NCBI GenBank assembly: GCA_951394045.1
Contig: OX595992.1
Span: 1,302,001 to 1,366,000, forward strand
From: Nitzschia sp. DOCU1
Lineage: Eukaryota; Bacillariophyta; Bacillariophyceae; Bacillariales; Bacillariaceae
DNA length: 64,000 nucleotides
Reading direction: 5' to 3'
Shown here: positions 49,180 to 56,378 of the stretch, piece after piece
Numbering within the stretch: the stretch's first letter is position 1
Layout: each line of letters starts with the position of its first letter
The notes under the pieces: model-generated
What the model was told of the DNA's origin: nothing
The model's database searches: none
The model's input: only the letters and a program-made list of their open reading frames with translations
Translations under genes and position numbers: made by a program

Positions 49180-50132
49180 GCTTGTCAGCTTCGTCTGAGG
49201 TCGTTCCAGGAAAGACTCATCGTCATTCTTCTATTCCTTTCGTTGACGTTCGAACGCAGTCTTTCTGCCAGTCGCCATCGTGCAGTATTGTGTTGAGGAG
49301 AATCTAACCATAGATTTATTACACTTTGCACAACAGCCATGTTGGGTTTATCGCACGAATAGGTTCCAAGGAACTGCGGCTACTATACTAGTCAGAGGGG
49401 AGCTAGAGTGGAATAGCGAGATAGGACAGGTGCTAACCTTACTTCTATCCGAAGGGGGTACTACCGATAGTTATTTCTGCAAATTCTCAACTACCAATAA
49501 TAGAAGTCGAAGGAATCCTTGCACCAAAGTACTCGTAGGAGGACGGACGGATGCGGTCGGCGGTGCATTTATTGTAAGGCAAAGTATATATATACTATAC
49601 GTACATACAATCGTGAAAGCATTGGTCGGAATTAGGTGAACATACGCGGAACCTTTGCTTGCTGCCGGGTTGACGATGGGAAGAAGCACGAATGTGCTGA
49701 CGCCCGAAGGCTGGCGAAAACAGATGGGTTTGGACGACTGCGTGGCGACACAGAACACCGTGCAGAAATATAGTTCATTCCTACGTACAATGGTAGATGA
49801 CTTCGCCTTCTCCCACATGACAACGGCGCCACGTTAACAAAGAACTTGCACAAAGGCGTAAATTGGCGTATTTCAAGCGAATCGGAATTCCTCCCGTCAC
49901 GATTGGGCACTCCGCCAAACTCCGTAATAAAGATGATAACGGCGTGCTTTCCTATTCGTCGACAGTGCGCCGAAACGGTCGAGACCGAACTTCCAACTGT
50001 TGCTCAAACAAGGTGCAATGCGGCACAAAAATTCAATTGCGTGATATTGCCATACAAACAGTCTTACTACTGAAAATCTACAATCGCATCGTATCTCTGC
50101 GCGAGAGGAAAAAAGGAAACTTGAACAGAACA
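49180..50132. other. 950-bp spacer between SMC5 and the amine oxidase gene
   Basis: Holds the SMC5 3' end and the next promoter. AT-rich TATATATACTATACGTACATAC near 49586-49610. The frame of the amine oxidase is open upstream to 49863 but starts only with TTG there, so a longer N-terminus with an upstream exon cannot be excluded. No other gene seen. Confidence 0.4.
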
Positions 50133-52075
50133 ATGATGACGAACTCTCACGTGCAAGCTGGAGCCGCCTTCAACCACGGGCTCCCTTCAATTCGATCGAT
50201 TGCTGTCCCGAAATTGCCTTTTCATCGTGGCAGTGGTCCCGACGAGTCATTGTCGGTGCCAACACTGTCAAATTTTCAAAACAAAATCCCTGCCGCCAAG
50301 TCGACGAGACCCCGATTTTTCAAGATGAACGAAGACAAACACAAGAAAGTCGACGTTGTCATCATCGGAGCCGGGGCGGCTGGCCTTCAGACCGCGTCTA
50401 ATCTTTTGGCGTCATCAAATTTCAATGGTGTCACGACAGAACGACCGTCCTTTCTCATTCTTGAGGGCCGAAATCGCGTCGGTGGTAGGATATGCACTGC
50501 AGTCGAATCCAAGACAAAGCTTGGCGGCAACGAAAAGGTGTCATTTCCAAGAGATCTCGGTGCTGCCTGGGTTCACGGCACGGGTTTGGGAGATGAGGAC
50601 GTCGAGGACCAGAACCCTATGATTAAGCTCCTGGAAAAGACGACTCCCGAAGGTCAATCGGTGCTAGAATATCATCTCAACCCCATCTTCCAGGGAAACT
50701 GCTGGACTAGGCCGGATACCGTGCTGCACAAAGCTGGCAGAATTGCTCTTTTTCGGAAGGGGGAGCGAATACGAAATGATTCGCCTTTGGTCAAGGTGTC
50801 AATAGAACGACATTATCAGATTGAAAAGGAAATCGCGAAACGTGGCAGTCAACTCTACGAGATCGGCCAAGAACTGCTGACTGCCATGACTCCTGTGGCT
50901 CAGGTGCGGTCCAGGGTGTCTAAGCTATTAGAGGCGGAAGAGAAGGAGGATTCATCGCTAGTTGGAGATTTAGTTCCCTTTTATGCCTTCCTGAGTAAGT
51001 ACCGAGTTCCGCCTGCCGTGTCGGGTCATTGTTTCAAGCATCTCATTTCTTCCTTCGTGAAAACCTCCTTCTGGCTGCTCTAGGTGAGAACTGGAATGGC
51101 ATCTCGGAAGACGACCTTCAGTTGAGCTGGTTCGAGCTACCGGACGAGCCGATGAACACAGATGAATTGTATATAGACGAAGGGGACTATCCGGGTGTCC
51201 ATGCTAAGCTACACCATGGAATGGAGAAGGTCATTGAGCCGCTGTATGACCAAGTTGCCGATCGCATCATTCTGGATCAGAAAGTGGTGAAGATCGCGCG
51301 TTTGGGGACAGAGGAGGTCCGGATACAAACGGAGTCGGGAATGACCGTGGACGCCAAGTGCTGCATCAGCACGATTCCTGTCGGTTGTTTGCAGAGGGAT
51401 GTGGGAACAATGTTCGACCCTCCCTTGAGTACTGAAACTGTTGAGGCAATTCATTCGCTTGCCACTGGACACTACAAGAAGGTCTTTCTCACCTTTGACG
51501 ACATTTTCTGGCCAATTGAAGAGCCAGTACTTGGGCTAGTTAGGACTGCTGACCAGGCCGACGAACTCGGCCAGTACCTTTTGGTGTACAATTTCTTGGC
51601 CAAGGATTCGATTCCTTGCCTCGAGGCTATCCTGGTGGGCAACAGCGGAAAGTGGTCCGTGTCGAAAAGCGACGCCGAAATCCGGGATGCAGTTCTCACC
51701 TTCATTGAAGATGCCATGGCTGTGGAAGATCTTGCTAGCAAGTGCGTATCCTGCCACATTACTAGGTGGGAAGAAGATCCATTCACACTTGGAGCATATA
51801 GCTCATTCAAGTTGGGAACGCTTGATCGACACATGGACGCATTGACCGAACCAAAATGGGATGGCGACTTGATCATTGCCGGTGAGTTCACCGAGTCGGA
51901 CGACATGGGCAGTGTTCATGCTGCCTTGTATAGTGGCGATAGAGCCGCAGCGCAGGCCCTGGAAACGCTTTCCAGAAAGAGAGCGCAGTCCATGAATGGC
52001 AACGAGAAGAGGTCGGATATGGTCGCCGGCGTCTCTGGAAGTGCCGAGGATGACAGGGAACAGCTGGTCGCTTGA
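50133..52075 (+). CDS. Polyamine oxidase / LSD1-like flavin amine oxidase
   Basis: FAD-dependent amine oxidase, likely acting on polyamines. Exons 50133-50994 and 51084-52075 join as A|GT over an 89-nt intron, giving 617 aa. The FAD-binding Rossmann motif VVIIGAGAAGLQTASNLL lies near residue 75, followed by LILEGRNRVGGRI and DLGAAWVHGTG, which bind the cofactor. The second half has CCISTIPVGCLQRD, the YKKVFLTFDDIFWP block and the C-terminal FAD motif IIAGEFTESDDMGSVHAAL. There is no SWIRM domain, which argues against a true LSD1. The 66-residue N-terminus is Pro/Ser/Arg-rich and might be a targeting sequence. The ATG at 50133 is the first in frame; a start one codon on is also possible. Confidence 0.88.
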
Positions 52076-52648
52076 GTGGTCAATGCCATGGATCTGTGTC
52101 GCAATGCCACCATAGCTGCCAATGTCAGTGCCTAAATTTAGTCCTCGTGTCCGTCCTTTTCCCAAACTTGAATCAAGGTTGTATTGCTTGCCAGCGGTCT
52201 ATATTCACTTATTCTCGCAATCGCAAATACAAAATACTAGAGCAGTCAGTTGAAAGTTGTCTCGCATTGGAGCGGGATATGGCCTTTCTTTATTGGCTAT
52301 TACTCGAACTACTTCTATTCAGCAGCAGGTCATTGTCACCTGTTTCTTTCTTTGGCGCCGCCAATGTGAAAGGCATTTCGGAGCTACCTAGTTTCCATCG
52401 AACTCCATACCCTCGTTGTCCCGGTATTTCATAGTACGAATGTACCCAGGTATTCGGGTATGTCATGCTAGTACTTTAGCGCGCTCGTGGTTTTGACCCG
52501 TTCCACGATTCGCGCGCCCGCCGTCTTCAAGAGCCAACACTCGCCCATCCCATTCTTTCCGTTTTGGGTCCTGCATCACCGCCACGAAGAACGAAAGGGA
52601 GGCAAACGACACTGATGAATGTGCCACAAATCCTTCATCCGAGTAGCC
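52076..52648. promoter_or_regulatory. Upstream region of RING-Deltex gene A
   Basis: 573 bp. From about 52480 onward it is clearly related to the region upstream of gene B (53465-53661): CCCATTCTTTC, GGTCCT-CATCACC, AACGACACTG and CAAATCC-TCATCC-AGTAGCC align in order. The promoters were duplicated with the genes. Confidence 0.6.
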
Positions 52649-53305
52649 ATGGAAACACAGATCTGCTTCGATCCCTCTCGGCGGCTCTGCAGTCAGCTAG
52701 GGCATTGTACATATACGTGGGTGAAACCTTCGAAGGGGTGTCCGATTTGCCATGAAGATCTTGCTCGGGGCTTGGGAGTGGCCGTCATGTTGAATAAGTG
52801 CGGGCATGTCTTTCACTCAGCATGTCTTAATGACGCGTTGTCGTTCAACAACCGATGCCCAGTGTGCCGCGTCACCATTGGTGAGCCAACCGGTAGCTGT
52901 CCGGCGGGTACCATGCTCATCAAGGTGGATTCTTCGATCCATTGCGGTGGGTTTGAGGGTATCGACACCATCGTTGTCACGTATCGAATCTCGTCTGGAA
53001 TCCAATCGAAACAACACGAGAACCCTGGTCGCCCTTTCCGGGGGGTGACGCGGACTGCCTACCTACCCTCTACTCCACAATCGGAAGATCTCCTGAAGCG
53101 CTTGAGATACGCCTTTCGGCGTGGCCTCACTTTCCACGTTGGAACATCGCTAACCTCCGGCAGGTCGAATGTAGTGTGTTGGGCAAGCATTCACCACAAG
53201 ACAGTTCTTAAAGGTGGAGCCCATGGGTGGCCTGATCCAAACTACTTCGACAACTGCAACCATGAATTGGACCAACTCGGCGTCCCCAAAGCATACGAGC
53301 TTTGA
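52649..53305 (+). CDS. RING-Deltex C-terminal (DTC) protein, gene A (lacks ART domain)
   Basis: Probable E3 ubiquitin ligase, 218 aa, intronless. A RING-H2 finger (CPICHEDL...KCGHVFHSACLN...CPVC) is followed at once by a Deltex C-terminal domain: GSCPAGTMLIK, GIDTIVVTYRISSGIQSKQH, ENPGRPFRGVTRTAYLPSTP, LLKRLRYAFRRGLTFHVGTS, TSGRSNVVCWASIHHKT and GWPDP. Human Deltex RING-DTC pairs ubiquitinate substrates and ADP-ribosylate ubiquitin, with NAD bound in the DTC. The start METQ (52649) is chosen because it is shared with gene B, although an ATG 30 nt upstream is in frame. Compared with gene B, codons about 5-285, including the ADP-ribosyltransferase region, are missing, while the 5' flank and first four codons are kept. 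Confidence 0.88.
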   Translation: METQICFDPSRRLCSQLGHCTYTWVKPSKGCPICHEDLARGLGVAVMLNKCGHVFHSACLNDALSFNNRCPVCRVTIGEPTGSCPAGTMLIKVDSSIHCGGFEGIDTIVVTYRISSGIQSKQHENPGRPFRGVTRTAYLPSTPQSEDLLKRLRYAFRRGLTFHVGTSLTSGRSNVVCWASIHHKTVLKGGAHGWPDPNYFDNCNHELDQLGVPKAYEL

Positions 53306-53661: not shown

Positions 53662-55164
53662 ATGGAAACACAGAGTCTTGCTTTCAATACTCCAAAGACT
53701 CCCTTCAGAGACGACGCCGACTCGCAACTTCGATTCCAGTCGAGACAGGCATGGGATCATGTGCTTGCATTGTTCTGCCAACTCCAGGAATACGGCATAC
53801 AACTTGCTATTCCAGATCCAAAGACTTACTGTTGGTTCGCAGAAGGATTCATTTCGCGTCAAAAGTGGATGGAGGCGTCTCGCAAGCCGAGCAATGTTTC
53901 GGTTGGTTACCACTACACCGGTCCGGTCTCGGCCACAATGATTGCAACCGGCGGATTGAAGGCGATGGGCCGTCGACAGTACTTCGGATCTGGAATCTAC
54001 ACAGCCACCAACCCTCATGCCTTTCGAGACTACGGAACCGTCGGTTTGGTAGTATTAGTCCTCAAGGGAGCTGTAGCGCTCTGGAACGCAAAGCCTAGTA
54101 CAGAGGAGATTGCTGACGTTGACAGTATCGTAGGCAACAAGGCACACGAAAATCTCAAGGCCCGCCGAGACCCAAATCAAAGCCATTATTTTGATGAAAT
54201 CGTGCTGAAATCTCATGATCAGACACTGCCACTGCTCCGGTTTGATAGAAAACTGGAGAGCAATGCCGATCTCATGTGGCGTGTCCATCAAGCGGTCGAA
54301 ACATTCGTATTCGCTCAATTTCCAGGACAACAACACTACCGAAGCTCGCGCGTCTTCCCACGCTACCATGACATTGAATTCCAACATCGACTCGCTCTTA
54401 GTCTCGATAGTGACTTGCCTTCAGCATCGCCAGATCTTCTTCAATGTTTTGCCGCTGCAACTGAAGCAGCCGAGCGCAAAGCAGCTGCCAGTAGACGCGC
54501 CATGATAACCACGTCCGACGAGTGCTCCATTCTCTCTCAGCCGCTCTACAGTCAGAAAAAGTATTGGACATATACGTGGGTTCAATCGTCCGACGACTGT
54601 CCCATTTGCCATGACGATCTTTCTGAGGGCTTGGGGGCAGTCGTCACGTTGAGCAAGTGCGGCCATCGCTTTCACGCAGAATGTCTTAATGAGGCGTTGT
54701 TGTTCAGCAACCGATGTCCAATGTGCCGCGGTACCGTTGGTGAGCCAATAGGCAGCTGTCCGCGGGGTATCATGCTCGTCAAGGTGGATTCTTCGATCCA
54801 TTGTGGGGGATTTGAGGATATCGACACTATCGTCGTCACGTATCGAATCTTTTCCGGAATTCAGTCCAAGCAACACGAGAACCCTGGTCGCCGCTTCTGG
54901 GACACGAAGCGGATTGCATACCTACCCTATACTCCACAATCGGAAGATCTCCTGAAGCGCTTGAGATACGCCTTTCGGCGTGGCCTTACGTTTCACGTTG
55001 GAACATCGCTAACATCCGGTAGGTCGAATGAAGTGTGCTGGGCAAGTATTCGTCACAAGACAGTGCTTAAAGGTAGAGCCCACGGGTGGCCTGATCCTAA
55101 ATACTTCAACAACTGTAACCATGAATTGGACCGACTCGGCGTCCCCAAAGCAACCGAGCTTTGA
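53662..55164 (+). CDS. PARP-like ADP-ribosyltransferase fused to RING-Deltex E3 module, gene B
   Basis: 500 aa, intronless, start METQ at 53662. Residues about 30-200 resemble a PARP-type ADP-ribosyltransferase: motif 1 VGYHYTGP (His84, usually HGT), motif 2 YFGSGIYTATNPHAFRDYG (Tyr113) and FDEIVL followed by LPLLRF (Glu179), matching the position of the xEYxxY-LRYLL block. This gives a candidate H-Y-E triad. A helical linker (200-295) follows. A RING-H2 finger covers 313-355 (CPIC, CGHRFHAEC, CPMC) and a full Deltex DTC domain 361-495 (VDSSIHCGGFEDIDTIVVTY, HENPGRRFWDTKRIAYLP, GTSLTSGR, RHKT, GWPDP). In animals these activities sit on separate partners, PARP9 and DTX3L. RING and DTC are certain; the ART assignment is from motifs. 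Confidence 0.82.
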   Translation: METQSLAFNTPKTPFRDDADSQLRFQSRQAWDHVLALFCQLQEYGIQLAIPDPKTYCWFAEGFISRQKWMEASRKPSNVSVGYHYTGPVSATMIATGGLKAMGRRQYFGSGIYTATNPHAFRDYGTVGLVVLVLKGAVALWNAKPSTEEIADVDSIVGNKAHENLKARRDPNQSHYFDEIVLKSHDQTLPLLRFDRKLESNADLMWRVHQAVETFVFAQFPGQQHYRSSRVFPRYHDIEFQHRLALSLDSDLPSASPDLLQCFAAATEAAERKAAASRRAMITTSDECSILSQPLYSQKKYWTYTWVQSSDDCPICHDDLSEGLGAVVTLSKCGHRFHAECLNEALLFSNRCPMCRGTVGEPIGSCPRGIMLVKVDSSIHCGGFEDIDTIVVTYRIFSGIQSKQHENPGRRFWDTKRIAYLPYTPQSEDLLKRLRYAFRRGLTFHVGTSLTSGRSNEVCWASIRHKTVLKGRAHGWPDPKYFNNCNHELDRLGVPKATEL

Positions 55165-55310: not shown

Positions 55311-56378
55311 CTAGGATAGGCGCTGCTGTTTGCGCGTTCGGATTTGGGCGTCACATGTTGGACAGTGACCCTGAGGCTTGTTTTTGAATATGCTGAGGCA
55401 CTTTTCACACACAAAGGCCATATCAACAATTTCTCCCGTATCAAAGCTTCGTGCCCGAAAGTCAACCTTGTTCATGGCTGGTAGGTTGAGCCTGTGACGG
55501 CAGGACCGCGGAGGCAAGAAGACACTCAATAGCACCTCGGTCAACGCCATGTTGGCTTGTGCCGCTCCACTGGGTGCCAAATAGAGACCTCCCGTCAAGT
55601 CACAAGTCTGTTCCAGAAACGAGCTGGACTTGCTACCACTTGGACTGGGAATAAAGCATCCATCCACGACGATTTGGAGTTTCTTTGCCGCAAAGGCACA
55701 GTTCATGAGAGCATTGTAATCGCTCGGCCGATCATCCGACGCTTGAATCAATAATACTCGAGGGGACCAGGCCCGAGCCTTTTTGGAGGAAGACTTCTTT
55801 TTACCACCCGTACCGCTCATCGCGGTAATAACACCTTCATCATCGGCGTTACCGCGATTCCAAATGTGTGAATCATGCAAGGCCGAGACGCCCGCATTTG
55901 CCGCCACCAAAAATCGATTGATCAGGCAGAGCGCCGTGGAAAATGCCGACGCCATGGCTGCCTGAGAAGCCGACAGTGGAACTCCGGCTTGATTCGCGTC
56001 TTTTGCTGCAGTAGCCACCAACTCCGCCACGCCATCTACCAAGTCGGTCGGAATCGACCGCGTATCCAATTTTGTTTCGAGATTGGCAAAAAACGTCTCG
56101 AGATGATCTTGACGCGGATAAACTACAGCAGAGTGATTTCCAGCTACCGCTACCAATACCAAAGCAGCATCACGTTCGAGACTTCCAAAGGCGCTGGAAA
56201 ACGCTTGGACGGCGCTCAACATTTCTTCCACCGTGGCAGGACCGATGCTGCGTTTACCCGCCGCCTCTCGCGCCTTGTCACTGGCCGTACGCTGGAAATC
56301 TCGTTCTCCCCAGGCGACGGGAGAAACGTCAATCACCAAGACTGTCAGGGGGCGTTCATCTGTGCGTTTGGCGGGCAT
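55311..56378 (-). CDS. TFB4: TFIIH core subunit p34 / Tfb4 (GTF2H3)
   Basis: Component of TFIIH, used in RNA polymerase II initiation and nucleotide excision repair. 355 aa, intronless, ATG at 56378. The von Willebrand A-like fold begins LTVLVIDVSPVAWGER and continues with ALVLVAVAGNHSAVVYP, MASAFSTALCLINRF, SPRVLLIQASDDRPSDYNALMN and FAAKKLQIVVDGCFI; DLTGGLYLAPS is the typical Tfb4 helix region. It ends in a C4 zinc finger, CEKCLSIF-x-N-x5-CPTC. A Lys/Ser insertion (KKKSSSKKAR) lies near residue 195. Human p34 is 308 aa. It converges on gene B with 146 bp between stops. Confidence 0.95.
   Translation of the reverse strand: MPAKRTDERPLTVLVIDVSPVAWGERDFQRTASDKAREAAGKRSIGPATVEEMLSAVQAFSSAFGSLERDAALVLVAVAGNHSAVVYPRQDHLETFFANLETKLDTRSIPTDLVDGVAELVATAAKDANQAGVPLSASQAAMASAFSTALCLINRFLVAANAGVSALHDSHIWNRGNADDEGVITAMSGTGGKKKSSSKKARAWSPRVLLIQASDDRPSDYNALMNCAFAAKKLQIVVDGCFIPSPSGSKSSSFLEQTCDLTGGLYLAPSGAAQANMALTEVLLSVFLPPRSCRHRLNLPAMNKVDFRARSFDTGEIVDMAFVCEKCLSIFKNKPQGHCPTCDAQIRTRKQQRLS

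Follow-up and report, generated by a model that had tools for sequence, protein, structure and literature searches.

A predicted single-chain fusion of a PARP-type ADP-ribosyltransferase and a Deltex-type RING-DTC module in diatoms, with a tandem copy devoid of the transferase domain

Results

The locus

The window analyzed here is the whole stretch of 64,000 nucleotides from Nitzschia sp. DOCU1 (contig OX595992.1, positions 1,302,001 to 1,366,000). It contains a gene whose predicted product joins a PARP-type ADP-ribosyltransferase (ART) domain to a RING finger and a Deltex C-terminal (DTC) domain (Table 1). The initial annotation had read this gene as one frame of 500 codons, and the frame is indeed open over its full length and closed by a stop. 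It goes beyond a chance open frame, since 28 relatives align with its product at 52-29% identity. The proposed start codon is supported by the relatives P0002 and P0003, whose starts fall at the same position. An in-frame extension upstream of this start is also open. This extension looks non-coding, because the corresponding sequence 5' of the tandem copy is 73% identical (129/176) and differs by indels that are not in threes.

Directly downstream, on the opposite strand, lies a match to Tfb4, a TFIIH subunit (PF03850, E 5.6e-48; 55311-56378, -). A flavin amine oxidase match (PF01593) extends across two overlapping frames at 49863-52075 (+); an intron or frame change within a single gene is the probable reason.

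Table 1. Features of the ART-RING-DTC gene and of its tandem copy. Positions are those of the window; residue numbers are those of the predicted protein.
Feature	Position	Strand	Remarks
Tandem paralog; RING-DTC with the DTC His, no ART	52619..53305	+	just upstream; ATG at 52649 matches the start of the copy with ART
ART-RING-DTC gene	53662..55164	+	500 codons plus stop, single exon; full-length relatives
PARP-type ADP-ribosyltransferase domain (predicted), residues about 24-203	53731..54270	+	
His84 codon, first triad residue, motif HYT	53911..53913	+	29/29 rows; 48/48 in the wider ART alignment
Tyr113 codon, second triad residue, motif GSGIY	53998..54000	+	29/29 rows; 48/48 in the wider alignment
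Glu179 codon, third triad residue, motif DEIVL	54196..54198	+	27/29 rows; 31/48 by column
Helix-containing linker, residues 229-300, partly of low confidence	54346..54561	+	AlphaFold2 whole-protein model
RING-H2 finger, residues 311-356, with Arg356 at the linchpin site	54592..54729	+	PF13639, E 8.5e-12
DTC domain, residues 364-494, full length	54751..55143	+	PF18102, E 1.1e-35, profile positions 2-133 of 133
Arg464 (CGT), replacing DTX2 catalytic His582	55051..55053	+	alignment
Glu488 (GAA), equivalent of DTX2 Glu608	55123..55125	+	alignment

The N-terminal domain

Structure prediction supports a PARP-type ART fold for the N-terminal part, both in the whole-protein model and in a model of the ART alone, in agreement with the PARP-like region initially proposed. 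The AlphaFold2 whole-protein model has a pTM of 0.51 and does not fix the placement of the ART relative to the DTC domain. Submitted to Foldseek, the ART model gave loose superpositions (TM-score by query 0.38-0.44, rmsd 4.3-9.3 Å, 50 rows listed). None of these 50 listed matches lay outside PARP domains, which excludes nothing.

By sequence alignment the candidate H-Y-E triad is present in the domain, and its residues, correctly numbered in the initial annotation, are almost invariant in the relatives. The wider alignment was built from the window piece together with 47 of the 75 proteins that its search retrieved. Its Glu179 column holds 31 Glu, 4 gaps and 13 other residues, but gaps and one-residue shifts, some with a Glu next door, make this count alignment-dependent. 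The motif at the first triad residue is HYT and departs from the HG[ST] of PARPs, Tyr being found in 45 of the 48 rows. For PARP-like toxins, a lysine is listed along with HG[ST], Y and E in PMC3482391; no such lysine was evident by eye after GIY here.

The ART part of the window protein had no Pfam match of its own, whether the whole protein was scanned (E <= 1, 25 of 26 matches) or the ART piece (E <= 10). Relatives did match the PARP profile PF00644: 13 of the 29 alignment rows at E <= 0.1 (best 6e-6), and 11 of 16 ART pieces at E <= 10 (best 1.2e-6), these 16 having been picked for spread from the 29 ART regions. Of ten relatives scanned for comparison with the curated cut-off, six matched the profile, none of them above that cut-off (best 26.3 versus 26.7 bits). 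When the PDB was searched with an ART-only profile, tankyrase-1 and PARP10 led, all matches being weak (best E 0.012), and exotoxin and DarT appeared at E 0.35-0.38. The best 60 of 79 PDB matches to the window protein, the best 60 of 322 to the whole alignment and the best 60 of 99 to the relative P0013 comprised RING and Deltex chains along with further ubiquitin ligases; no PARP stood among them.

The HYT motif could indicate that the ART descends not from PARPs but from a different H-Y-E group, for instance Tox-ART-HYD1, taken up from bacteria. Weak matches of the ART pieces to Tox-ART-HYD1 (PF15633; 4/16, best E 0.025) and to DUF7002 (3/16, best 0.012) point the same way. However, the PARP profile matches more pieces and far better, the structure matches listed are PARP domains, and it is tankyrase-1 and PARP10 that lead the PDB profile matches, weak as these all are. 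We consider a non-PARP origin improbable.

The same motif bears on the function of the domain. The ART might be a non-catalytic module that binds NAD+, ADP-ribose or a protein, as proposed for PARP9, in which case the protein would simply be a RING-DTC ligase with a targeting domain. The replacement of HG[ST] and a PARP similarity below the Pfam cut-off are consistent with this, as is the precedent of tankyrase-2 G1032W, a change at the Gly of HG[ST] described as catalytically inactive in PMC9712121. On the other side stand the constancy of His84 and Tyr113 in all 48 ART rows and that of Glu179 in 27 of 29; PARP9, by contrast, is reported with Thr or Ser at the third position (PMC2964712), and so lacks the residue that the diatom ART keeps. 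A non-catalytic ART appears unlikely, though its chances are appreciable.

The ligase half

The RING-H2 finger and the complete DTC domain proposed in the initial annotation were both recovered above their Pfam cut-offs. The RING is directly followed by the DTC domain, as in Deltex (DTX) E3 ligases, and DTX folds were matched. The RING-H2 ligands are C313, C316, C333, H335, H338, C341, C352 and C355. Arg occupies the linchpin position in 28 of 29 rows, the remaining row (P0029) having no RING. According to PMC7615817, human DTX RINGs have no Arg linchpin and carry Lys, Gln or Gly there.

The same source reports that the ADP-ribose 3'-OH is activated for ubiquitin transfer by two DTX2 residues, His582 and Glu608, both of which it describes as strictly conserved in DTX proteins. 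The equivalent DTC residues of DTX3L were tested by mutation (PMC11460948). In the window copy, the Glu alone is kept from this catalytic pair. His582 corresponds to His in 25 of the 29 rows, Arg in the window protein, Pro in P0009, Ser in P0030 and a gap in P0029, the last three being judged divergent or cut there; Arg464 is found in no other row. A second DTX2 histidine, His594, corresponds to His474 of the window protein. The DTX2 numbering follows an offset set from the construct length; its one check was that the letters at 582, 594 and 608 proved to be His, His and Glu, as expected.

Arg464 speaks against an ability of the window copy itself to ubiquitylate ADP-ribose, and this copy probably lacks one of three activities. 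The initial claim that both activities reside on one chain may therefore hold for the family, and maybe not for this gene.

Relatives and their distribution

A search with the full-length protein, in which scoring was confined to the 7996 candidates with the most words in common, returned 30 proteins, 27 of them with both the ART and the RING-DTC part. The 29-row alignment consists of the window protein and 28 of these matches; P0006, without ART, and P0031, with a cut ART, were dropped. Among the 28 aligned relatives the sole exception is P0029, which ends before the RING. The complete set of residues (H-Y-E, eight RING ligands, DTC His and Glu/Asp) is found in 22 of the 29 rows. Named sources are Fistulifera solaris (P0025), Thalassiosira exigua (P0028), a Thalassiosira MMETSP entry (P0021) and Skeletonema marinoi (P0020). 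Fistulifera is a pennate diatom and the others are centric, the Thalassiosira lineage having been checked by taxid. As judged from these sequences, the ART-RING-DTC family is conserved, and every member with a named source organism comes from a diatom. The relative P0006 (649 aa) shows, by eye, one RING followed by three DTC-like repeats.

Residues 20-300 alone, used as a protein query, retrieved none of 2685 candidates at E <= 0.01. A search with the ART profile, which admits short proteins only, found 46 of them, none with a Pfam domain listed. Given the 30 and 46 matches obtained otherwise, the empty result was judged to reflect search sensitivity. No relative was found in the viral contigs scanned with the family alignment.

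The ART and the RING-DTC could be separate products of two neighboring genes, or of a chimeric gene model. P0029 would fit such a split, and so would the 46 short ART proteins, though these may be exons cut by introns. The uninterrupted frame and the presence of both parts in most full-length matches speak against it, as does P0021, whose MMETSP label denotes a transcriptome project. This reading is largely refuted and retains a very small probability. The fusion proposed in the initial annotation is a single continuous coding frame that recurs in many relatives.

A tandem copy without the ART

The tandem copy had escaped the initial annotation. It is 76% identical to the window gene, has matching 5' sequence and keeps both the catalytic His and the Glu of the DTC domain. 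In a tree built without P0009, P0025, P0029 and P0030, the two copies pair as sisters with support 100/99 within a group of 10 (97/99), the other members of which all have the ART. Because the copies nest among members that all carry this domain, its loss from the tandem copy is the simplest reading, and we infer such a loss rather than a gain by the window gene. Over the RING-DTC part (199 codons), dN/dS between the copies is 0.34, which indicates that both are on average constrained.

The window copy might still be a decaying duplicate that has lost its DTC catalytic residue and has no distinct role. H464R and G472R affect positions with at least 80% conservation among the relatives, and 3 of 56 conserved DTC positions are changed in the window copy versus 1 of 56 in the tandem copy (counts made without P0009, P0029 and P0030). 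Yet the frame is open at full length, conserved positions are changed at only 1/26 in the ART and 0/14 in the RING, and in several relatives DTC changes are at least as numerous; the dN/dS value also runs counter to decay. We give this explanation little credence.

Two other DTC-containing loci of the genome were considered as further evidence and did not help. A third Deltex gene on contig C16 (802317-802889, -) has a RING and a DTC domain with, by eye, Pro at the catalytic His position; its long N-terminal region has no Pfam match at E <= 0.01 and no ART match. The other, a DTC match on contig C7 (2921240-2921470, +), is interrupted by several internal stops and probably represents either a fragment of an exon or a copy that is no longer functional.

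Discussion

We propose that the gene is a member of a Deltex family of diatom type, whose chains combine a PARP-type ART with RING-DTC, and that the two halves act as a relay, the steps of which may now be shared between the copies. We give this explanation about an even chance of being right. The ART would use NAD+ to place ADP-ribose on a substrate or on itself, a single unit being likelier than a chain. The DTC pocket would then capture this ADP-ribose next to the RING-held E2~ubiquitin, and ubiquitin would be transferred to the 3'-OH of the adenosine ribose, as in the DTX2 reaction, or to a nearby lysine. The Arg linchpin of the RING should favor transfer to lysine. In the window copy, the ART and the RING may still work, with ADP-ribose ubiquitylation lost or weak owing to the change of His to Arg at 464. 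The neighbor without ART keeps an intact DTC site, so that after tandem duplication the two steps may be shared out between adjacent genes.

A bolder version can be put forward only tentatively, and we think it more probably wrong than right. Diatoms would have evolved a self-sufficient single-chain writer of the ADP-ribose-ubiquitin mark, with a noncanonical HYT-type ART feeding ADP-ribose to a Deltex module in cis, possibly for sexual reproduction. In the present genome, tandem duplication would then have produced two partners, one ART-RING with a disabled DTC site and the other RING-DTC with an intact site, a natural separation-of-function pair. Taken as a whole, the initial interpretation is partly supported, and the mechanism that it suggested, coupling ADP-ribose signaling to ubiquitination in cis, is a plausible hypothesis.

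The predicted architecture unites on one chain what the known animal systems assign to separate proteins. PARP9 and DTX3L likewise place a PARP-type domain beside a Deltex ligase, but they are two proteins in animals; no macrodomain was found in the window protein among 25 of the 26 Pfam matches listed (E <= 1). Compared with human DTX1, DTX2 and DTX3L, the ART in the same chain is found only on the diatom side; the diatom RING differs by its linchpin Arg, and the window copy by Arg at the His582 position. The initial comparison with PARPs holds for the fold and for the His and Tyr positions, which are common to the catalytic domains of PARP10, PARP15 and tankyrase. It does not extend to their HG[ST] motif, and identity is about 15-22%. 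PARP10 has no triad Glu, whereas the diatom ART has H-Y-E. A PARP and a ubiquitin-system domain also share one chain in the Dictyostelium U-box-macro-PARP and fungal PARP-UBCc proteins, as described in PMC2964712. These carry a U-box or an E2-like domain and not RING-DTC, hence no known ADP-ribose-ubiquitylating site. The initial annotation knew of no description of the ART-RING-DTC architecture, and none was found among the literature matches listed, a set that mostly leaves out subscription papers.

In the human field, the cellular synthesis of the ADP-ribose-ubiquitin hybrid mark is a topic of active research. Ubiquitin has been reported ester-linked to ADP-ribose on PARP10 in cells, and which E3 makes the hybrid mark under interferon is a question posed in the same source (PMC12000418); titles among the literature matches point to later work. 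A chain that carries both domains ties the two steps together genetically and makes them testable with one protein. In diatoms, Deltex members are upregulated during sexual reproduction in four species, Skeletonema marinoi included, according to PMC12618581. The S. marinoi ART-RING-DTC protein P0020 is among our matches, which does not imply that it is the regulated Deltex gene.

The family also bears on the statement in PMC2964712 that PARPs are missing from diatoms such as Phaeodactylum and T. pseudonana, since the ART of this family escapes standard models. That statement has been amended by the finding of at least two PARPs in T. oceanica (PMC4245714). The present genome contains a partial match to a conventional PARP with HGT (contig C10, 870756-871151, +; E 4.9e-21, profile positions 2-120 of 199), three macrodomain matches and five ADP-ribosylglycohydrolase matches, two of them adjacent. 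Enzymes of ADP-ribose turnover thus appear to be present.
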